42,407 nt of DNA. It comes from an uncultured Bacteroidales bacterium (lineage in GTDB: Bacteria > Bacteroidota > Bacteroidia > Bacteroidales > Bacteroidaceae). Below are positions 1 through 37,419 of the stretch, piece by piece (position 1 is the first letter of the stretch; each line of letters starts with the position of its first letter). The position numbers and the translations under genes are program-made. The stretch covers positions 1-42,407 of the forward strand of contig CACYBB010000021.1 in the NCBI GenBank assembly GCA_902772585.1, written 5' to 3'. The notes beneath the pieces are model-generated. The model had not been told where the DNA came from. It did no database searches and worked only from the letters and a program-made list of their open reading frames with translations.

Positions 1-958
1 GATGTTGTGGTTCTGACGAGTACCGGTCTTGAAGACCTCGCTGAACCAGTCGGTATCGGTGTTGTCCTGGAACTGATAGCGGCCTGTGGTAGGATTCAGG
101 CTGTAGCCACCTGCCAGAGCAGTGTTTGAGTTGGCACATGCCTGACCCAGATACTGACTGTACTGACTGGCATTCATCACGTCATAGACGTCGCTGGACA
201 CCTTGTCAATACCGAAGTAACCCTTATAATCCACCTTCAGAGGCTGGTCTTTCTTACCGCTCTTGGTTGTAATAATGATCACACCGTTAGCAGCACGAGA
301 ACCGTAGATGGCACCTGCAGAAGCATCCTTCAGCACCTGGATGGTCTCAATATCGTTTGGTGAGAAGTCGCGGATGGTGGTTCCTACGGGTACACCGTCG
401 ACCACATAAAGCGGTGCGGTGCTACCGAATGATCCGACACCACGAATGCGCACCGTCGGGTCTGCACCAGGCTGACCGTCGGAAGTAATCTGTACGCCAG
501 CGACCTTACCTTCCAGCATTGAAGAAATGTTGGAGTTAGAGACACGCTTCAGTTCTTCGGCATTCACGATAGATACAGAACCTGTCAGGTCTGCCACCCA
601 CGACTACCACCTGCTCCAACATGTTGGTGTCGTCTGCCAGTTGAATAGTTTCAAGGTTTGCGCGCCCACGTACGGCAATTTCGCGATCCTTGTAGCCAAC
701 GTAGCTAAAGACAAGAACGCCGTCAGAAGCGACATCGATGGTAAAGTTACCGTCAAAATCAGTAACAACACCAAGTTTCGCGTTCTTTACCTTGACGGTA
801 GCACCAATGAGTGGCTGTCCGTCTTGATCCACAACCTGACCACTCACTTTGATGGTCTTCGATTGTGTCACTGATGCCATAGCCTGAGAAGGGAAGGTAA
901 CAAGACCTCCAGCAATACCTGCCATGAACATCATCGAGAATAACATTTTCTTTCTCAT
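1..958 (-). pseudogene. SusC/RagA-type TonB-linked outer membrane receptor, 5' part, frameshifted
   Basis: The first 120 codons give a signal peptide (starts MRKKMLFSMM), then a carboxypeptidase-regulatory-like fold (VSGQVVDQDGQPLIGATV, DFDGNFTI, FSYVGY) and the VVVVG start of the TonB box/plug region. At about 595 the frame breaks: the expected YGTQKK-type codons are missing and the reading continues one frame over as ADLTGSVSIVNAEELKRV, then the plug (EGKVAGVQ, PTVRIRG, YVVDGVP, YGSRAANGVIIITTKSG) to the window edge. Family members import glycans or peptides together with a SusD lipoprotein, which would lie beyond base 1. A missing 17-base piece would explain the shift. It may be a real lesion, a variable locus or an assembly error. 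The family call is firm; pseudogene status is less certain. Confidence 0.8.
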
Positions 959-29631: not shown

Positions 29632-30495
29632 ATGAAGCATTACTATAAGGTCGCTGAACACACCTTCTCTGTCGATATACCAGAAGGCAATACTCTTCTC
29701 GATGAAATGGGGCAATACGCTCCATTTTCTGTCAATGAAGACGCTCACGTGGTCTTCTCCTTACGTATCGTCAACAAAGATGATTTCCCACAGACTGACG
29801 ACCTTACCACAGAGATGAATCAGGACGATGACGGTTCACAGATACTGGCAGGTCATCTCCATGGACAACCTTATTTCGAGTTTCAACTGTGGGGACGCTG
29901 TGCTGCCCGTATGGTCACGGACAAACATTATAAGCATGCTGACGTCTTGCTCGTCGATGAACCATTATTTGGCATCAACAATGCTTTGATGGTTATGTAT
30001 GCCCTGTCAACAGCCAACCTCCAGACTGCCCTCTTCCACTCTTCCGTGGTTAGTTGTGCCGGATACGGCTATATGTTCCTGGGCAAGAGTGGTACGGGCA
30101 AAAGTACTCATTCCAGTTTGTGGCTGAAGCATATTAGTGGTACCCAACTAATCAATGATGACAACCCCGTAGTGCGTCGCATGCCCGATGGATTCTACGT
30201 TTTTGGATCTCCTTGGAGTGGAAAGACCCCTTGTTATCGCAACGTATGCTATCCTTTGGGGGCTGTTGTCCAACTCAGTCAAGCACCTTATAATCAAATA
30301 CAACGATTGAGACCATTATCGGCCTACGCCGCACTTGTACCATCTATCTCTGGCAAGCGTTGGGACAAGCAGGTTGCTGAAGGCCTGCACGAGACGGAGG
30401 ATATGATGGCAAGCGAGGTTAATGTATGGCATCTGGAATGCCTGCCCGACCAAGAAGCCGCAGAAATCTGTTCCAAGACAATACGTAAAGCATGA
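29632..30495 (+). CDS. HPr-kinase-like P-loop ATPase of a PqqD-associated cassette
   Basis: The 287-residue protein has a PEP-carboxykinase/HprK-type fold. The P-loop GKSGTGKST lies at 151-159, an acidic INDD motif at 174-177 corresponds to the HprK Asp pair, and a second glycine/lysine loop (FGSPWSGKTP) begins at 191. The N-terminal 140 residues (QLWGRCAARM, GINNALMVMYA) form the domain found in stand-alone HprK-like proteins of peptide-modification loci. In the lasso peptide paeninodin such a kinase phosphorylates the precursor peptide. The substrate here is unknown. It overlaps the next gene by 4 bases. Confidence 0.8.
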   Translation: MKHYYKVAEHTFSVDIPEGNTLLDEMGQYAPFSVNEDAHVVFSLRIVNKDDFPQTDDLTTEMNQDDDGSQILAGHLHGQPYFEFQLWGRCAARMVTDKHYKHADVLLVDEPLFGINNALMVMYALSTANLQTALFHSSVVSCAGYGYMFLGKSGTGKSTHSSLWLKHISGTQLINDDNPVVRRMPDGFYVFGSPWSGKTPCYRNVCYPLGAVVQLSQAPYNQIQRLRPLSAYAALVPSISGKRWDKQVAEGLHETEDMMASEVNVWHLECLPDQEAAEICSKTIRKA

Positions 30496-30944
30496 ACAAC
30501 GTATCCGATAACGAGATCATCCAGAGTGCCATCAAGCTGGTCAACGAAGGGTTACGCGTCACCTTTCCCGTGAAAGGCTACAGCATGCTGCCATTCATCA
30601 TCGGTGGTAAGGAGAGCGTTGACCTCGTCAAACCTGATAATCTGCAGGTCGGCCACGTCGTGCTGGCATGGGTGGAGGGCTGTCGTTACGTGGTACATCG
30701 TATTATTCAGATAGATGGTGATAAAGTAACACTGATGGGCGACGGCAACATTGCGGGTGTAGAGCACTGCCTGCTCAGCGACGTAGCAGCACTGGCTATC
30801 AACGTCGTCACACCGCAAGGGAAACACCACCATCTCTATGCCTCATGGCGCATCAAGGCCAGTCGTCTATGGTGGCGCTTGCTACCTATTCGTCGCTGGA
30901 TACTGGCTATCTATCGTCGGACTTGGCTAAGAATAGTGTCGTAA
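30492..30944 (+). CDS. S24/S26-like signal-peptidase-type protein
   Basis: The 150-residue protein has the signal peptidase core. VKGYSMLPFI places a nucleophile-like Ser at 31, GHVVLAW is the usual second box, and YVVHRII places His at 69, as in the Ser-His SipW/archaeal type rather than the Ser-Lys bacterial type. DGDKVTLMGDGN is the following box. There is no N-terminal membrane helix; the C-terminus is basic and tryptophan-rich (WWRLLPIRRWILAIYRR) and may lie on the membrane. It may remove a leader peptide within the cassette. LexA-type repressor is unlikely because there is no DNA-binding domain. Confidence 0.75.
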   Translation: MNNVSDNEIIQSAIKLVNEGLRVTFPVKGYSMLPFIIGGKESVDLVKPDNLQVGHVVLAWVEGCRYVVHRIIQIDGDKVTLMGDGNIAGVEHCLLSDVAALAINVVTPQGKHHHLYASWRIKASRLWWRLLPIRRWILAIYRRTWLRIVS

Positions 30945-30987
30945 TGTCGTAATAACGTTATACCGTAATACCGAAATATCGAAAAGA
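30940..30987. repeat. Octamer tandem repeat between the S26-like gene and pqqD-like gene
   Basis: CG dinucleotides fall at 30940, 30948, 30956, 30964, 30972 and 30980, exactly every 8 bases. The first unit holds the last sense codon and stop of the S26-like gene (TAA 30942-30944). The array ends in an A-rich tract before the ATG at 30996. Confidence 0.85.
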
Positions 30988-30995
30988 AATAGAAT

Positions 30996-31271
30996 ATGAA
31001 ACAGAAAGAAGGATTTGTGCTGCGTACCGTCTGTGGCGAGCACGTCATTGTAGGTGAAGGCTTAGGTACCATTGATTTTGGCAAGCTTATCAGTCTCAAC
31101 GAAACCGCTGCATGGATATGGAAAAAAGCCGGTGAGATGGGAGATTTTACTATCGACCGTCTGGCAGAAGCCCTCTGCGAGGAATACGAAGTCGATGCCC
31201 AACAAGCTCACGATGACGTAACAAAGATGGTCCAGCAATGGCAGGAACTGGGAATCATTGAGAATTCGTAA
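30996..31271 (+). CDS. PqqD-family protein (RiPP precursor recognition element)
   Basis: The 91-residue protein is a stand-alone PqqD-like winged-helix domain: GFVLRTVCGEHVIVGEG, the hallmark ISLNETAAWIWKKA (about 32-45), and a helical end (DDVTKMVQQWQELGIIE). PqqD-like domains bind leader peptides of ribosomally made, modified peptides and deliver them to tailoring enzymes. Here the neighbours are an HprK-like kinase, a peptidase-like protein and an ABC exporter; no precursor gene is visible. Its stop codon lies 18 bases before, and in the same frame as, the exporter start. Confidence 0.85.
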   Translation: MKQKEGFVLRTVCGEHVIVGEGLGTIDFGKLISLNETAAWIWKKAGEMGDFTIDRLAEALCEEYEVDAQQAHDDVTKMVQQWQELGIIENS

Positions 31272-31289
31272 TTCATAATTCGTAATTCC
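31263..31289. repeat. Heptamer tandem repeat between pqqD-like gene and ABC exporter
   Basis: AATTC begins at 31263, 31270, 31277 and 31284, exactly 7 bases apart. The array covers the last codons and stop of the pqqD-like gene and the whole spacer to the TTG start of the exporter. Confidence 0.8.
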
Positions 31290-32918
31290 TTGAAGTACGT
31301 CGTCTGGATCATACGCAACATGGCGGGCATCAGGTGGAACACCCTGATTCGCATCGTGGTAGGCATCACACAAGTGATGCTGGGCCTGATTATGATATGG
31401 TTCAGCAAGCAGTTTATCGATGTTACCATCCGCACAGGCAGTGACCAGGATGTTATTACGATGGTAATACTGCTCATCGCTTTGGTTGTTACGGGTATCC
31501 TGCTGCGCCAGTTCTACTACTATATGGCCACCAAAGCCAACACCTATCAGTCGAACAGCATCCGACTGCGGGTGTTCAGTAGCCTGTTTCGTCGTCAGAT
31601 GTACGAAGATCAGCTACATTCCGGTGATGTCACCTCACGACTTTCCAAGGATATAGACACCGTTGCCGATGTCACTACCTCTCTGCTGCCTCAGTTTACC
31701 GTTACAGGAGTACAACTCGTTGGAGCCTTCCTGCTGATGTACTCCATGGATAGCAGACTGGCACTCGCACTGCTACTCATCACACCGTTTGTGGTAGCTT
31801 TCGGCAAACTCTTCGCCCATCGGTTGCGTAACATGACGCTCGACATCCGTCAACAGGAGAGCACCATCCAGATGCAGGTACAGGAAGGTATGGAACACAA
31901 TGCCGTCCTGCGCTCGTTGGGTAGCGAACAGTGGGTAACAGGACGTCTCAGCGATATGCAAGACCAATTGATGGGACGTGTACTCCGTCGTACGCGTTTC
32001 ACGGTCGTATCCCGACTGCTCTTGGCTTTTACTTTCAGTCTGGGCTATCTTATGGCTTTCATCTGGGGTGGACTGCAACTACGCGCTGGCGTTATCACCT
32101 TTGGTGTCATGACATCGTTCCTCCAGTTGGTAGGACAGATTCAGCACCCCATATTAAATATGCTGAACATGATGCCTCAGTTCTTCTATGCTATGGCGAG
32201 TATCGACCGCCTGGAAGAGTTGACGACGACGTCTGAACAGACAGATAGCGGTGACCACGAACAGCTAACAGGCCCTATAGGTATCATGGTTCATGATGTC
32301 TGCTTCACCTATGCTTCTGGTGACCAAGAGGTGCTTACCCATTTCTCTCACAACTTTCCTCCAGGCAGCAAGACAGCCATCATGGGAGCGACAGGCATCG
32401 GCAAGACCACCCTCTTCCGACTGATGCTGGCATTTATCAAACCTAATGCCGGTGAAATCACTGTTTCTGGTAGCAACCGACAGTCCCAGCCCGTTGACGA
32501 GCACACACGGAAGCACTTCGTCTTTGTGCCCCAAGGCAATACGCTCATGAGTGGTACTGTCCGTTACAACCTACAACTGGCCCGTCCAGAGGCTACTGAT
32601 GAAGAACTACGTCAGGTACTCCATGTCGCTATGGCGGATTTCGTCTATAACCTACCCCAAGGCATCGACACCCAGTTGGGCGAACGTGGTATCGGTCTCA
32701 GTGAAGGTCAGGCACAGCGCATCGCCATCGCTCGTGGTCTGTTACGTCCTGGTGGCATTCTTCTTCTCGACGAAATCAGCTCTTCTCTCGACGAACAAAC
32801 CGAGCGAGAACTCTTCAGCCGTCTCTTCGACTATTGTCATGACAAGACCATGATCTTCATCACCCACCGCCCTGCCGTCAGCCAACTCTGTGATGATGTC
32901 ATCCAAATTAAGAAATGA
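31290..32918 (+). CDS. ABC exporter, fused permease and ATPase
   Basis: The 542-residue half-transporter has about six membrane helices in the first 300 residues and an ATPase domain: Walker A GATGIGKTT at 366-374, signature LSEGQ at 470-474, Walker B ILLLDE at 490-495. There is no N-terminal C39 peptidase domain, so any leader would have to be cut by another protein such as the S26-like one. Its place behind HprK-like, S26-like and PqqD-like genes suggests export of the cassette product. The start is taken as TTG; the alternative is ATG at 31320. It overlaps dgt by 4 bases. Confidence 0.9.
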   Translation: MKYVVWIIRNMAGIRWNTLIRIVVGITQVMLGLIMIWFSKQFIDVTIRTGSDQDVITMVILLIALVVTGILLRQFYYYMATKANTYQSNSIRLRVFSSLFRRQMYEDQLHSGDVTSRLSKDIDTVADVTTSLLPQFTVTGVQLVGAFLLMYSMDSRLALALLLITPFVVAFGKLFAHRLRNMTLDIRQQESTIQMQVQEGMEHNAVLRSLGSEQWVTGRLSDMQDQLMGRVLRRTRFTVVSRLLLAFTFSLGYLMAFIWGGLQLRAGVITFGVMTSFLQLVGQIQHPILNMLNMMPQFFYAMASIDRLEELTTTSEQTDSGDHEQLTGPIGIMVHDVCFTYASGDQEVLTHFSHNFPPGSKTAIMGATGIGKTTLFRLMLAFIKPNAGEITVSGSNRQSQPVDEHTRKHFVFVPQGNTLMSGTVRYNLQLARPEATDEELRQVLHVAMADFVYNLPQGIDTQLGERGIGLSEGQAQRIAIARGLLRPGGILLLDEISSSLDEQTERELFSRLFDYCHDKTMIFITHRPAVSQLCDDVIQIKK

Positions 32919-34264
32919 AATATATGGACTGGAAACAACTCATATCAAACAAGCGACTCGGACAAGAACAGCGCCACACAGAGCGTCACGACGACCGTTC
33001 AGAGTTCAAACGCGATTACGACCGACTCATCTTCTCGGCACCGTTCCGCCGCCTGCAGAACAAGACACAGGTATTCCCTTTGCCGGGTAGCGTCTTTGTA
33101 CACAACCGACTGACCCACTCGCTAGAGGTGGCCAGCGTAGGCATGTCACTGGGTAACGACGTCGCTCAGCGTACCATCACCGAGCGTCGTCCCGAACTGC
33201 GCGGCACACTGTTTGAAGAGATTGGCCAGATTGTTTCTACAGCCTGTTTGGCTCATGACTTGGGCAATCCACCGTTTGGTCATTCTGGAGAGAAAGCCAT
33301 CCAGACGTTCTTTACTGAGGGCCCTGGCAAGGAACTGCAAGAGCAGGTATCACCCGCCTTCTGGGACGACATCACCCATTTTGAGGGTAATGCCAATGCC
33401 TTCCGACTGTTGACGCACCAGTTTAAGGGTCGCCGTCCTGGTGGTTTTGTCATGACCTACTCCACCATTGCCAGCATCGTGAAATATCCCTATGCCTCGT
33501 CAGCAGCCAGCAAGAAGGGCAAATTCGGATTCTTCCAAAGCGAGCAGGCCACCTACCAGCGCATTGCCGATGAAATGGGGATTTTCTGTATCTCAAAACC
33601 TGGTGAGCCACTTCGTTATGTGCGCCATCCGCTGGTCTATCTCGTTGAGGCTGCCGACGACATCTGCTATGAGATAATGGATTTAGAGGATGCCCATAAA
33701 CTGAAGATTATTACCTTTGAACAAGCTTCACGCCTCATGCTCGATTTCTTCGACGCCGAGACGCAGCAACACATCCTGCAACGTATCGAGAGCGAACAAC
33801 TCACCGATAAAAATGAGCAGATTGTCTATCTTCGTGCCTGTGTCATCGGTAAATTAGAGAATGAGTGCGTCAACACTTTCGTAGCACATGAAGACGAAAT
33901 ATTGAACGGTACCTTCACTGGCAGCCTCATCGACCATATCAGTCCCTTACAGCGCGAAGCCTATCGTCGTTGTGCCGAAGTTTCCGTACAGAAAATCTAT
34001 CGTAGCCGTCCTGTGCTCGACGTAGAACTGTCAGGTTACAAGATTATGGAGACACTGATGCAGCAGATGGTAGAGGCCGTCATGCATCCTGACCGCTACT
34101 ACTCACAGCAACTCATTGGTCGCGTGTCCAGCCAATATCACATTGACGACCCCGACTTGGAGGTTCGTCTCATGGCTGTTATCGACTACATCTCCGGTAT
34201 GACCGATGTCTATGCCCTCGACGTCTACCAGAAGATAAATGGTATCTCCCTGCCGATTATTTAG
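32915..34264 (+). CDS. dgt: Deoxyguanosinetriphosphate triphosphohydrolase
   Basis: The 449-residue HD-domain enzyme cleaves dGTP (or other dNTPs) to the nucleoside and triphosphate. Motifs are RDYDRLIFSAPFRRLQNKTQV, NRLTHSLEVA (His68), ACLAHDLGNPPFGHSGEKA (His114-Asp115) and VEAADDICYEIMDLEDA with the last metal-binding Asp. These match Dgt type 1. Start and exporter stop overlap (ATGA), and the 3' end overlaps the convergent sensor kinase gene by 8 bases, leaving no room for a separate terminator. dNTP hydrolases can limit phage replication, but this one looks like a housekeeping member. Confidence 0.95.
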   Translation: MKYMDWKQLISNKRLGQEQRHTERHDDRSEFKRDYDRLIFSAPFRRLQNKTQVFPLPGSVFVHNRLTHSLEVASVGMSLGNDVAQRTITERRPELRGTLFEEIGQIVSTACLAHDLGNPPFGHSGEKAIQTFFTEGPGKELQEQVSPAFWDDITHFEGNANAFRLLTHQFKGRRPGGFVMTYSTIASIVKYPYASSAASKKGKFGFFQSEQATYQRIADEMGIFCISKPGEPLRYVRHPLVYLVEAADDICYEIMDLEDAHKLKIITFEQASRLMLDFFDAETQQHILQRIESEQLTDKNEQIVYLRACVIGKLENECVNTFVAHEDEILNGTFTGSLIDHISPLQREAYRRCAEVSVQKIYRSRPVLDVELSGYKIMETLMQQMVEAVMHPDRYYSQQLIGRVSSQYHIDDPDLEVRLMAVIDYISGMTDVYALDVYQKINGISLPII

Positions 34265-35909
34265 GAATCTCCAAGATAAAGCGACTACCATCATGGTAAT
34301 CAGCATCATAGAGCAGGTCACCACCCAGATTGAGGGCATGACGCTTTGACAAAGGAAGTCCCAATCCAAGACCCTCAGAGAGGTCATCAACCTTAACAAA
34401 CGGTTTGAAGAGCAGATGCTGCAATTCGGGAGGAACACCAGGCCCCACATCTTCCACAATGAATTGAATGGTAGAGCTGGTCTCTGTGATGCGTAGCGTA
34501 ATATGTTGTCCATCGGAGTATTTCGCAGCATTGAAGAGCAACTCACGAAGTGTACGCATGAGGAAGAGGTGGTTAGTCAGGATATTGGTACTGTCTGACA
34601 GGTCGGTAGTGAAATGAATGGTCACCTTCGGGAAACGCTCACGAGTATAGTCAATGCACTCCTGAGCGACGGTATTACACGATATAAAATCACTCTTAGG
34701 AGAGAAGAGACCATGCGTAATGGCCAATTCAGAACTGTCGGAAAGCATCTGCACCATACGGTTCAGGTGGATGGCATTATGAGTCATCGTATTGGTGATG
34801 TCAGCCAATTCAGCATCCTGCAACTGTCGTTGCACTTCTCCTGAATGTTTGGCTTCAAGACTGTCACCAAGCACATCGGCAAAACCCATGACAATGTTCA
34901 ATGGTGTACGAATCTGGTGAGAGACATTCTGGATGAACAGAGCCTTCTTCTGGACAGCGTACTTGGCAAGTGCCATGGCACGCGCCAATTCCTGATTATG
35001 TTTCTTGGCTTCCTCACCAGTCTCACGGATGCTGTTCACATGTTCATAGAGCGATTGCCGCATGACAGCAAAGCTGTTCTGTAGGCGTCCGATGGCATCC
35101 TGACGATTGGAACGCGGTATCGTCTCTTCATAATGTCCTGCAACAATCTTCTTGCTGAGTTTCAAAAGTTGGTGAAGGGGTTTGATGGTCCGCCTTGTCA
35201 TCAGATAACAAATCAGCAAGATGAGCAAGAGCCCAACAACGAAAAGCACATAGGCAAGATTGCGCAACTGGTGGTAATTCTCCATGAGTTCATTGTCAGG
35301 ACATACCAAGACGAGGTTCCAGTCAGTACCCGGCAATGCGTTATAGAAGACATGAGCATTGTCAAAATCAAGACGCTGCTCCTTGTCCATCAGCAAGAAG
35401 TAAGAGTTGGCAGACGGTCGCTCTGCTGCATTGATGACCGAAGACAGTTGCTCATAGGAGAGCGTGGCGATAACGACACCCTCAATGGGACCGCCATTAA
35501 GATTAAGCGCCTTAGAATATGTAAAAATGGTGTCACCCTCCACGATATTGACAGTATATCCAGGAGAAATCTGCGCGATTTCATCGGGAGATGTCGCGAC
35601 ACGACAAGTCTTGACGGTACGGTTCATAGCGACAATGCGCTGGCAGATAGACTGCAAGGAATCAGGAGGGAAATTCTCCTCCAGCAGCCAGCTGTTGCTC
35701 TTGACAGCATTCTCCATCAGGTACAGCTTTGTCATCATGCGTTGAACGGTGGTATGCAGCACTCGCTCAGCATATTGCTCTGACTCCCCCTTGATGAGGT
35801 GGCGCGAATAGAGAAACAGGATACCTAATGCCGCCACAAAGATAAAGGCAGCCACCATCGTGATGCCGATACTAAGCTTTGCTGCGAGTTGTCGTCGGAT
35901 GCTATTCAT
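34257..35909 (-). CDS. Membrane sensor histidine kinase
   Basis: From the chosen start the protein has 550 residues: a membrane helix near 15-35, a periplasmic sensor region, a second helix near 215-238, HAMP and coiled coil, then HisKA with FIQNVSHQIRTPLN (phospho-accepting His331) and an HATPase_c domain (LRELLFNAAKYSDG, VEDVGPGVPPEL, GLGLGLPLSKRHALNLGG). No response regulator is adjacent. I take ATG 35909 as start because GGAGG lies 9 bases upstream and the stop of the upstream gene overlaps it (ATGAATAG); the longer ATG is 35933. Together with the upstream gene it may form a two-protein sensor. Confidence 0.9.
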   Translation of the reverse strand: MNSIRRQLAAKLSIGITMVAAFIFVAALGILFLYSRHLIKGESEQYAERVLHTTVQRMMTKLYLMENAVKSNSWLLEENFPPDSLQSICQRIVAMNRTVKTCRVATSPDEIAQISPGYTVNIVEGDTIFTYSKALNLNGGPIEGVVIATLSYEQLSSVINAAERPSANSYFLLMDKEQRLDFDNAHVFYNALPGTDWNLVLVCPDNELMENYHQLRNLAYVLFVVGLLLILLICYLMTRRTIKPLHQLLKLSKKIVAGHYEETIPRSNRQDAIGRLQNSFAVMRQSLYEHVNSIRETGEEAKKHNQELARAMALAKYAVQKKALFIQNVSHQIRTPLNIVMGFADVLGDSLEAKHSGEVQRQLQDAELADITNTMTHNAIHLNRMVQMLSDSSELAITHGLFSPKSDFISCNTVAQECIDYTRERFPKVTIHFTTDLSDSTNILTNHLFLMRTLRELLFNAAKYSDGQHITLRITETSSTIQFIVEDVGPGVPPELQHLLFKPFVKVDDLSEGLGLGLPLSKRHALNLGGDLLYDADYHDGSRFILEIPK

Positions 35910-37419
35910 GGGCGTCCTCCTTTCCTGTTTCATTATCAGCAGACTGAATCATATCATCCACCAGATCAATAATGGTGTTACCCTGTTTGCGGATAATCTC
36001 AATCTCATGGCTCGCATCGTCAGGGCTGATAGTATGATAGTTGCTGCAGAGCGTGGCCACATGACTGTTGAGGGTTTCCGAGGGCTCCAGCATCTTGTTG
36101 GTCATCTGGTGTAGGAAGGCCGTCTTCATACGGTCGGCCTCTTGTGCCTGATGGTTAGCTTGCTGCAATTCCTTACCACGCTCCGTGAGTTGGCTGTTCA
36201 AGTCTTCTAACTCAGCAATTCGGATAGCCAATGAGTGTTGCATCTGCTGGAAATCCTCCTGCAACTGACCTATCTCATCAGCACGCGCCGTATCGGGGAT
36301 GGTCATGTCATAGTGGCCCTGACTAATCTGCTGAGCAGCCTTCGTCAGCATGTCTAGTGGCAACAATTGGCGATGCACAAACAGACTGCTTAAGCCAACA
36401 ACGAACACCAGTCCCAGGAAAGCAATGGCAAGCACCAAGTAGAGCAGTCGATTATAGTCGCCAAAGATGTCCTCCTCTGGATAGACCACAGCGACACTCC
36501 AACCAAGGTAATCCGTTGTTCGTCCCACCACAGCAGAGCGCATGAAGGGTTTATAGACCACATACCACTCCTCGTCATTCATGATGATGTGCTGCTGACC
36601 GCTTTCACCATTCATCATGGCCTTGACGACCCTTAGCATAGAGGGGTCGGTATTCTCGTTCACAAACTGAGAGAAGACATTCTGCTTGGTCAACTTCTCC
36701 TTATCAGGATGGACGATGTAGGAACCATTGCTGGCCAACAGCGTGCTGTACCCATTAGGCGAAGGCTTGGCAGCAAGGACTATCTGTGAGAGCAGTTCGA
36801 TGGCAACATCAACAGCCACAACGCCTATAGGCTTTCCGCTACGATCGAAGAGGGGCAGACAGAAAGTAGCCAAAGCCTCATCCTCGGTATCTTCGTTTTT
36901 CAGCGGGTCTGTCCAGCAGGCATGTCCCAATGTCATCGGCTCGGTGTACCACACCTGCAGGGTATAGGGACGGTTGACAAACGTCTCCTGGACAACCAGT
37001 TCCGAAGAAGCATTGGTTGTCGTACTATGGCCCTTGCGGTGAATGTAGGCCATAAACAACTCACGGCCTGGATAGTAATAAGGTTTGAAGACGATAGCAC
37101 AGCCTACAATATAAGGGTTACACTCTACCAGTCGACGACTGTAGGAGAGCATGCTGTCAGGTCTGTTAAGGTGAGCCATTACCTGCCAATAGACGTTTCC
37201 TGCCGACTGTTCCACACTAAGCAGGACATTGTCAATATCCTGTACCGTAGCATCCAGCGTTTCCTCAGCATTATGCAGAGACTTCTCTCTTAGTGTCTGG
37301 CGTGAGAATTGGAACATGACCACCAAAGACACTAAGAGCAGCAACGCTACCACGCAGGCCACTATCAGGCTGAGTCTAAGCGAAAGCGTTTGGGAGATTT
37401 TCTTAGTCAACATCAGCAT
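35902..37419 (-). CDS. Cache-HAMP sensor with degenerate histidine-kinase dimerisation domain
   Basis: The 505-residue protein has helices at about 16-36 and 324-347 around a periplasmic dCache-like domain (FKPYYYPGRELFMAYIHRKG, DRSGKPIGVVAVDVAIELL, NGSYIVHPDKEKL). A HAMP segment and long coiled coil follow. The end (430-495) aligns with a HisKA helical hairpin, but the expected SHEIRTPLN is TNKMLEPSE, with Asn441 where the phosphorylated His belongs. It stops before any ATPase domain, so it cannot act as a kinase alone. It may pair with the intact kinase encoded directly downstream, overlapping by 8 bases. Confidence 0.82.
   Translation of the reverse strand: MLMLTKKISQTLSLRLSLIVACVVALLLLVSLVVMFQFSRQTLREKSLHNAEETLDATVQDIDNVLLSVEQSAGNVYWQVMAHLNRPDSMLSYSRRLVECNPYIVGCAIVFKPYYYPGRELFMAYIHRKGHSTTTNASSELVVQETFVNRPYTLQVWYTEPMTLGHACWTDPLKNEDTEDEALATFCLPLFDRSGKPIGVVAVDVAIELLSQIVLAAKPSPNGYSTLLASNGSYIVHPDKEKLTKQNVFSQFVNENTDPSMLRVVKAMMNGESGQQHIIMNDEEWYVVYKPFMRSAVVGRTTDYLGWSVAVVYPEEDIFGDYNRLLYLVLAIAFLGLVFVVGLSSLFVHRQLLPLDMLTKAAQQISQGHYDMTIPDTARADEIGQLQEDFQQMQHSLAIRIAELEDLNSQLTERGKELQQANHQAQEADRMKTAFLHQMTNKMLEPSETLNSHVATLCSNYHTISPDDASHEIEIIRKQGNTIIDLVDDMIQSADNETGKEDAHE

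Follow-up and report, generated by a model that had tools for sequence, protein, structure and literature searches.

The window analysed here, a stretch of 42,407 nucleotides from an uncultured Bacteroidales bacterium, carries a four-gene cassette that is probably a Bacteroidales RiPP system resembling that of the linear polyphosphorylated peptides (LPP) and acting in trans on dispersed precursors. In the proposed pathway, the PqqD protein would bind the YxxP leader of short precursors from other parts of the genome, the HprK-like kinase would phosphorylate a serine, most likely the LLAGS Ser about 20 residues past the leader Tyr, the S26 peptidase would cut the leader off near LLAGS, and the remaining core, linear and mostly acidic, would leave the cytoplasm through the ABC exporter. 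The gene set and its linkage, the peptide family, including the leader motif and the conserved Ser, and the co-occurrence of peptides and cassette can be read directly from the sequences.

All four packed genes described in the first-pass annotation are present on the + strand: an HprK-like kinase of 287 aa (LppK-like; 29632..30495), an S26 or archaeal-type signal-peptidase-like protein of 150 aa, the likely leader peptidase (LppS-like; 30492..30944), a stand-alone PqqD domain or RiPP recognition element (RRE) of 91 aa (LppB-like; 30996..31271), and a fused ABC exporter of 542 aa without a C39 domain (LppD-like; 31290..32918). The HprK-like and S26 genes overlap by 4 bases (30492-30495), 51 bases separate S26 from PqqD, and 18 bases separate PqqD from the TTG start of the ABC gene (31290), whose product begins with MKYV, as do ABC homologues at two other loci (L103 and L119). 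Because the glsB stop and the HprK start are separated by 2 bases and the ABC stop overlaps the dgt start by 4 bases, the cassette sits tightly inside a glsA-glsB/dgt run. The host is a Prevotella-type gut bacterium.

The kinase matches PF07475 (E 4e-4) and TIGR00679 (E 4.6e-5) weakly and below the cut-offs, as well as the HprK structure 1ko7 in the PDB (E 8e-5). In an alignment of 37 rows, H136, S153, G154, G156, K157, T159 and D177 are invariant, i.e., the His, the P-loop and the Asp are kept, and the AlphaFold model has a pLDDT of 95.8. The S26 protein (pLDDT 89.8) likewise matches its family, the archaeal-type signal peptidase I TIGR02228, weakly and below the cut-off (E 4e-6); S31, H69, R70 and G83-N86 (GDGN) are invariant among 36 rows, and the spacing of Ser31 and His69 is 38, compared to 39 in LppS (S29/H68; PMC13381572). 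The exporter contains ABC_membrane and ABC_tran domains (PF00664 and PF00005) and matches no C39 family at E 0.1; in NCBIfam it scores 236.4 bits against CydD and 235.7 bits against MsbA, both under the equivalog cut-offs.

The first-pass annotation had noted that no precursor lies within the run and that the product may be encoded elsewhere. Indeed, neither the leader regex nor the profile (E up to 0.5) detects a precursor in the whole window, and candidate precursors with YxxP leaders are dispersed through the same genome. These peptides are ~37-70 aa long and share the leader MKKxYxxPxxxVVxL...LLAGS; this genome holds ten of them on nine contigs (leader profiles A4/A6), and 16 profile matches each were obtained in G090 and G146. 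A 30-aa clustering of short ORFs gave no recognised small family, and finer clustering revealed the peptides. The leader regex has little specificity (28 matches vs 14 in reversed sequence), and 19 of its 26 distinct matches were retained, 7 being discarded by eye. Two matches (G000:C17 and C3) were rejected as peptides, lying in frames of 525 and 450 aa, and were left out of the counts; peptides with YEAPxAEx leaders at L133, L140, L144 and L157 are missed by the profile and enter no count. Of ten peptides searched, none matches a Pfam family up to E 1, and NCBIfam gives nothing meaningful (one chance-like match, E 0.085). Six peptide pairs were compared; in the two that diverge most, identity amounts to 20/22 and 22/22 in the leader vs 7/15 and 13/26, respectively, in the tail, and the cores are mostly acidic. 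Many of the peptide genes neighbour genes of large, often secreted proteins.

The candidate phosphorylation site stands out by its position: a Ser is found 19-20 residues past the Tyr/Phe in 74/77 peptides (other positions: 0-9) and at Tyr/Phe +18..21 in 96/98, counts that are partly selected, because the profiles were trained on peptides near cassettes or from this genome with the LLAGS columns included. No further Ser follows the conserved one in 26/98 peptides; if the kinase is Ser-specific like LppK (PMC13381572), this residue would therefore be the likeliest target and should remain in the core.

The distribution of the peptides also links them to the cassette. Among 198 genomes of the order, peptides were found in five, all of which belong to the 20 with adjacent HprK and S26 genes (5/20 vs 0/178 without the pair; p 6e-6). 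Leaving out the own genome gives 4/19 vs 0/178, and additionally leaving out G054, whose peptide is part of the profile, gives 3/18 vs 0/178; the peptide match in G120 is weak (E 9e-4, 17 positions). Several observations count as evidence against a link between cassette and peptides: 15 of the 20 HprK-S26 genomes have no peptide match with this profile, and neither PqqD nor HprK was detected in G032 (97% complete; two peptides, best E 2e-12) or in G001 (79% complete; 13 peptides). The same applies to the 19 genomes with only a sigma-factor-linked type of the HprK-S26-PqqD triad, where strong peptides (E up to 1e-5) occur in three, and in 15 at E 0.01.

A rival idea is that the cassette handles a non-YxxP substrate, such as a sigma-factor-adjacent secreted protein or surface proteins, and that the peptides are merely co-resident small proteins. 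In 20 loci the triad adjoins genes for an rpoD-like sigma factor and a secreted protein, with no ABC gene alongside, and in G001 and G032 the peptides are found without a detected cassette. However, the secreted protein, which is conserved, ~165 aa long and encoded by 32 of the 36 genomes from the genus, is triad-adjacent in 20 of them and lacks an adjacent triad in 12, including the own genome, and is therefore disfavoured as a dedicated substrate. Moreover, the peptides bear YxxP, the motif through which LPP and lasso leaders bind the RRE, track adjacent HprK-S26 genes across the order, and in 12/119 loci are encoded no more than 3 kb from HprK (e.g., 38 bases upstream of it at L070). A substrate other than the YxxP peptides thus appears unlikely.

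Less probable still is a pathway for lasso peptides, or what is left of one, in which the PqqD protein would be B1, and cyclase and B2 would have been lost or reside elsewhere in the genome. The assignment as a stand-alone PqqD domain is firm (PF05402, 66.8 bits, above the Pfam cut-off of 23.4), and lasso B1 proteins are its closest likeness: three PDB sequences match the PqqD profile up to E 0.01, all of them lasso leader-binding proteins of the B1 type, with TfuB1 (6jx3) as the best (E 5e-9) and TbiB1 as another. HprK-like kinases and NTP transferases are also known from lasso clusters of Bacillota (PMC7533575 and PMC13381572); those of the paeninodin type and others combine an HprK-like kinase, a PqqD/B1 protein, an ABC exporter and, in some cases, an NTP transferase. 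On the other hand, the lasso leader peptidase B2 (PF13471) has no match in 33 of the 36 genomes of the genus, including the own genome (88% complete), and stays under the family cut-off in the other three; only 2/60 genomes exceed it, neither of them in the genus. Instead, an S26 gene lies beside HprK and PqqD in 36/39 loci, and the leaders form a different family.

Linkage across loci bears out the cassette as a unit. In the neighbourhood survey, which the first-pass annotation had named as a refuting test, the cassette genes travel together, and the reading survives this first test because HprK, S26 and PqqD are kept together not only in 36/39 loci, as stated above, but also in 55/61 loci with enough flank, in mostly constant order while flanks and sites change; S26 and PqqD adjoin HprK in 67 of the best 80 named loci. 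Given this linkage, it is very unlikely that the four genes are unrelated chance neighbours that share no pathway, even though sites vary between species and an ABC gene, which 54 of the best 80 named loci have no more than 3.5 kb from HprK, was not found there in the other 26, some of which are cut by contig ends. At 13 of these 80 loci, NTP_transf_5 homologues are encoded at most 3.5 kb from HprK, and the transferase (PF14907) was confirmed in three relatives (L038, L043 and L070). Many of the 80 are ruminant-gut bins by their titles; cultured commensals that carry cassette genes include Segatella baroniae B14 and Prevotella ruminicola. The four-gene run itself lacks a radical SAM enzyme, but on contig C58 (L034) the genome carries another cassette, in which such an enzyme accompanies a second PqqD and a precursor that contains Cys. 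The HprK matches include two phage-labelled and two plasmid-labelled records, one of each being inspected: in the former (L251), a complete cassette is surrounded by housekeeping-like genes and the record resembles bacterial chromosome, and the latter (L252) belongs to a 1.77-Mb replicon that carries the sigma-factor-linked triad. Both were rejected as cases of mobile carriage.

The closest described relatives of the putative trans-acting system are the LPP RiPPs, for which the accessible part of the report demonstrates leader binding, Ser phosphorylation and leader cleavage by the Bacillota enzymes, but neither export nor a final product (Popov et al., 2026, PMC13381572). By sequence, the cassette shares with LPP the SipW-like or archaeal-type leader peptidase with its Ser/His pair, the discrete RRE, the HprK-like kinase and the MsbA-like exporter; both peptide families have a YxxP leader, a conserved Ser soon after it and a variable C-terminal core, and both kinds of cassette are patchily distributed. 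The NTP transferase, in contrast, is part of the set that defines LPP and is present here in some relatives only, with none in this cassette. LPP clusters each hold one to three precursors with the consensus YxxPxVLxHQxIxFETxxS (PMC13381572), whereas the candidate Bacteroidales precursors are mostly encoded outside the cassette and retain YxxP and the conserved Ser, the remainder of the consensus being absent; the radical SAM side-branch is a further difference.

By homology to the LPP system, we infer leader binding, Ser phosphorylation and RRE-dependent leader cleavage; the exporter gene by itself suggests export. The putative sequence of recognition, phosphorylation, cleavage and export put forward at first pass is thus supported by the linkage survey, the lasso-B1-like PqqD protein, the near-identical LPP enzyme set and the YxxP precursors. 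The scissile bond may lie before AGS, by alignment with the LPP site between FET and AQS, or after AGS, if the cut follows the preference of signal peptidases for small residues at -3 and -1. A cut before AGS would place the conserved Leu at -1, which is unusual for an S26 enzyme. Prochlorosins, in which a single LanM enzyme serves many scattered precursors, resemble the arrangement in that one enzyme set acts on many dispersed substrates, with unrelated chemistry and enzymes.

LPP RiPPs are stated to be restricted to Bacillota (PMC13381572), whereas the present analysis places near-identical machinery in Bacteroidales and supplies a candidate precursor family for it. Since the precursors would be recognised in trans, cluster-based mining would overlook them; the leader profile brings them within reach of a search. 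That many peptide genes are neighbours of those for large, often secreted proteins provides a first handle on peptide function. Tentatively, the cassette might be a mobile four-gene unit that serves ~10-16 dispersed phosphopeptide precursors, many of them from satellite genes of surface lipoproteins or large secreted proteins, and the peptides could then tag, plug or partner surface proteins instead of forming a classical antibiotic-like RiPP.

The cassette of the window is a conserved, moving peptide-maturation unit. ORF calling recovers all four genes where the first-pass annotation had placed them, all on the plus strand: an HprK-like kinase (29632-30495), an S26 peptidase (30492-30944), a stand-alone PqqD protein (30996-31271) and an ABC exporter (31290-32918). 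The latter two score above the Pfam cut-offs; the matches of the kinase (PF07475, E 4e-4; TIGR00679, E 4.6e-5) and of the peptidase (best to TIGR02228, archaeal-type signal peptidase I, E 4e-6) are weak yet consistent, and their AlphaFold models are confident (pLDDT 95.8 and 89.8). His136, the P-loop SGTGKST (invariant except at two positions, which are at least 90% conserved) and Asp177 are kept among 37 aligned HprK-like proteins, as are Ser31, His69 and GDGN among 36 S26 proteins. All three solved sequences that the PqqD profile matches at E up to 0.01 are proteins that bind lasso leaders, namely TfuB1, TbiB1 and a protein named as a lasso chaperone of the PqqD family. The cassette begins 2 bases beyond glsB of the glycine lipid synthesis pair glsA-glsB (NCBIfam equivalogs, over cut-off) and overlaps by 4 bases with a dGTPase-like gene (dgt) on its other flank. 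The spacers at 30945-30995 and 31272-31289 are A+T-rich, with short near-repeats (CGTAAT/CGAAAT and TTCGTAATTC units). Elsewhere in the window (34257-37419), two tandem minus-strand ORFs of 558 and 505 aa resemble sensor kinases, the first with HisKA, HATPase_c and HAMP matches.

A PqqD search of 60 genomes gave matches in 34, 31 of which fall within the window's genus (36 genomes, its own counted). The genes do travel together, as expected earlier: the triad of HprK, S26 and PqqD is complete in 36 of the 39 regions fetched around PqqD matches (exceptions: L043, L069 and L072). Among the best 80 of at least 587 confirmed relatives from named genomes, HprK has both S26 and PqqD nearby in 67 loci and an ABC gene in 54; where at least 4 kb are available on both sides (61 of these 80), the corresponding figures are 55 for S26 and PqqD and 42 for all four genes. 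The loci L112, L123 and L125 seem to repeat L040, L042 and L037, whose contigs are equally long. Nearest among the named bins are Bacteroidales bacterium RUG10554 and Prevotella sp. RUI260 and HAN020. In the same best 80, the flanks vary, and the glsB junction is common only to the three closest loci (L093-L095, L094 being cut off by its contig end); in all eight fetched relatives with an ABC-type cassette elsewhere (L085-L092), glsB stands without an adjoining cassette. A second arrangement, found at 20 loci, combines a sigma factor, a secreted protein of ~165 aa and the triad without ABC gene. The secreted protein is present in 32/36 genus genomes, and no triad was seen beside it at the 12 places fetched for want of a triad match.

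Several individual loci deserve mention. At L101 (433-2613), an upstream reading frame, presumably IspG, runs on in frame into the HprK-like ORF to give a joint ORF of 726 aa; this looks like a cassette insertion at the extreme end of a housekeeping gene, but may be an assembly effect. In a bacteriophage-labelled record (L251, MT835698.1) that looks like bacterial chromosome, HprK-S26-PqqD-ABC stands among housekeeping-like genes. On four contigs titled Fibrobacter (L106, L109, L116, L121), the cassette genes are close to Prevotella ones, and L109 and L116 hold candidate precursors too, which may reflect mis-binning or transfer.

The first-pass annotation had found no precursor gene in the four-gene run and proposed that the product may be encoded elsewhere. 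Indeed, the whole window is without a precursor peptide by leader regex and profile search, and ten candidates, with a leader of the form MKKxYxxPxxxVVxL...LLAGS, lie on other contigs of the same genome. They were reached by short-ORF comparison and a leader regex, the latter weak alone (28 matches vs 14 in reversed sequence). A profile of 19 peptides picked by eye out of 26 distinct regex matches (alignment A4) finds 11 places in this genome at E up to 10: nine are short peptides (C58, C34, C56, two on C35, C27, C24, C8 and C6), and two were dropped as they sit in long frames. The tenth peptide (C7) was found with an enlarged 27-row profile (A6), which yielded 81 unique peptides at E up to 0.5 in an initial set of loci and, with further loci added, 99 at E up to 0.02. 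The ten peptides compared with Pfam, nine from this genome, match nothing there up to E 1, and NCBIfam gives a single, chance-like match (E 0.085).

A typical peptide is MKRKEYQKPTMQVVKLQQQTQLLAGSGELPGMPGYPGGGDPFNP (C34). Among 77 peptides containing [YF]xxP (E up to 0.01), the residue at Tyr/Phe+19 is Ser in 25 and that at +20 in 49, other positions having Ser in 0-9 peptides each. Outside the training set, the motif occurs in 50 of 51 peptides and Ser at +17..20 in 48 of these 50, compared to 31% of four-residue tail windows that hold Ser (336/1072), an enrichment that is partly selection, since the profile includes Ser columns. The residues leading up to this Ser are mostly L, A, G/A. Of 98 motif-bearing peptides, 96 have Ser at +18..21, no further Ser follows it in 26, and the tail is net-acidic in 87. 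The C-terminal GDPTRNVPWWDGEGD is common to the C27 and C56 peptides; the two precursors on separate contigs that share these identical last 15 residues are at L187 (5379-5537) and L185 (232-354), and relatives in G001 and G035 (L201, L241) end almost the same way. Six peptide pairs were compared: the two most diverged (C58/G007 and the L119 pair) keep the leader while the tail has diverged, and the remaining four are similar along their whole length, differing at few positions in total.

The peptide genes are dispersed. A profile-matching peptide lies within 3 kb of HprK in only 12 and within 7 kb in 16 of 119 HprK loci, repeats still included. A same-strand gene lies at most 350 bases upstream of 65 of 99 peptides and encodes at least 300 aa in 54 of the 65; 46 of the 65 have their start inside the locus, and 36 of these show a hydrophobic N-terminal stretch by a crude test without control. 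Other peptides precede, by a few up to some tens of bases, genes with lipoprotein-like product starts; two of these proteins have no Pfam match, and to call them fimbrillin-like would be tentative.

The genome of the window contains a second cassette (contig C58, L034, 3476-6859) with the order radical SAM - PqqD-a - HprK - S26 - PqqD-b, which is repeated in L044, L045 and L130 as far as the contigs extend; no ABC gene was found on the 8.3-kb C58. In each of the four loci the radical SAM gene has upstream of it an ORF of 41-46 aa with the leader MExKKKFEKPxxxVVxxK, in which Phe replaces Tyr, and a variable, Cys-containing tail. In Segatella baroniae B14 (L118, 6889-16826), NTP transferase-HprK-S26-PqqD lies ~2.5 kb from an opposite-strand run in which a further radical SAM enzyme and an ABC transporter are encoded.

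Among the 60 relatives, strong peptides (best E up to 1e-5) occur in 10/10 genomes with a window-type, ABC-bearing cassette, at least four of which supplied training peptides, vs 5/26 other genus genomes (p 1.2e-5, uncorrected for phylogeny). In the 19 genomes that have only the sigma-factor-linked triad, strong peptides occur in 3 and a match at E 0.01 in 15. Of the 24 genomes outside the genus, one has a match (G054), where the peptide lies 38 bases upstream of HprK (L070). Across the order, HprK and S26 are adjacent in 20/198 genomes (within 3 kb by our own reading of the search results; G178, 39 kb apart, excluded), and the five genomes with peptides (G000, the window's own, G054, G090, G120 and G146) are all inside the 20 (p 6e-6; omitting the own genome gives 6e-5, and omitting G054 as well 7e-4). 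G120 matches weakly (E 9e-4); in G090 and G146, which belong to other families, there are 16 matches apiece, spread over many contigs. However, 15 of the 20 genomes have no peptide match by profile, and strong peptides occur in G001 (79% complete) and G032 (97% complete), where neither PqqD nor HprK was found; both results count against the link.

In parts, the cassette is LPP-like. The set for linear polyphosphorylated peptides (LPPs) comprises a SipW-like peptidase, an RRE, an HprK-like kinase, an NTP transferase and an MsbA-like exporter; LppB binds YxxP leaders, LppS cuts the leader in vitro with LppB but not alone, and LppK phosphorylates core Ser3, no phosphate being detected with Thr or Tyr in that position (PMC13381572). 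The paper does not identify the final product. Aligned on YxxP, LL-AGS of the peptides (Ser at Tyr+19/20) is similar to the LPP sequence FET|AQS (Ser at Tyr+18), and it is because of this likeness and the LPP enzyme roles that an LPP-like mechanism is proposed. LPPs are termed restricted to Bacillota in that paper, whose text has no word starting with 'bacteroid' (PMC13381572). Bacteroidales RiPPs mined with BAGEL4 are described mostly as C39-transporter, GG-leader clusters, unlike the present set (PMC10352776), rumen surveys describe lasso clusters, mainly of Bacillota (PMC7533575, PMC13289728), and no counterpart in Bacteroidetes was recognised among listings of the open-access PMC literature. 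The dispersed peptides form a newly recognised candidate precursor family. The earlier proposal that the four proteins recognise, phosphorylate, cut and export a peptide has gained linkage and dispersed candidate precursors, and its four steps are what we infer: the cassette would act on such peptides by leader binding, phosphorylation, cleavage and export.
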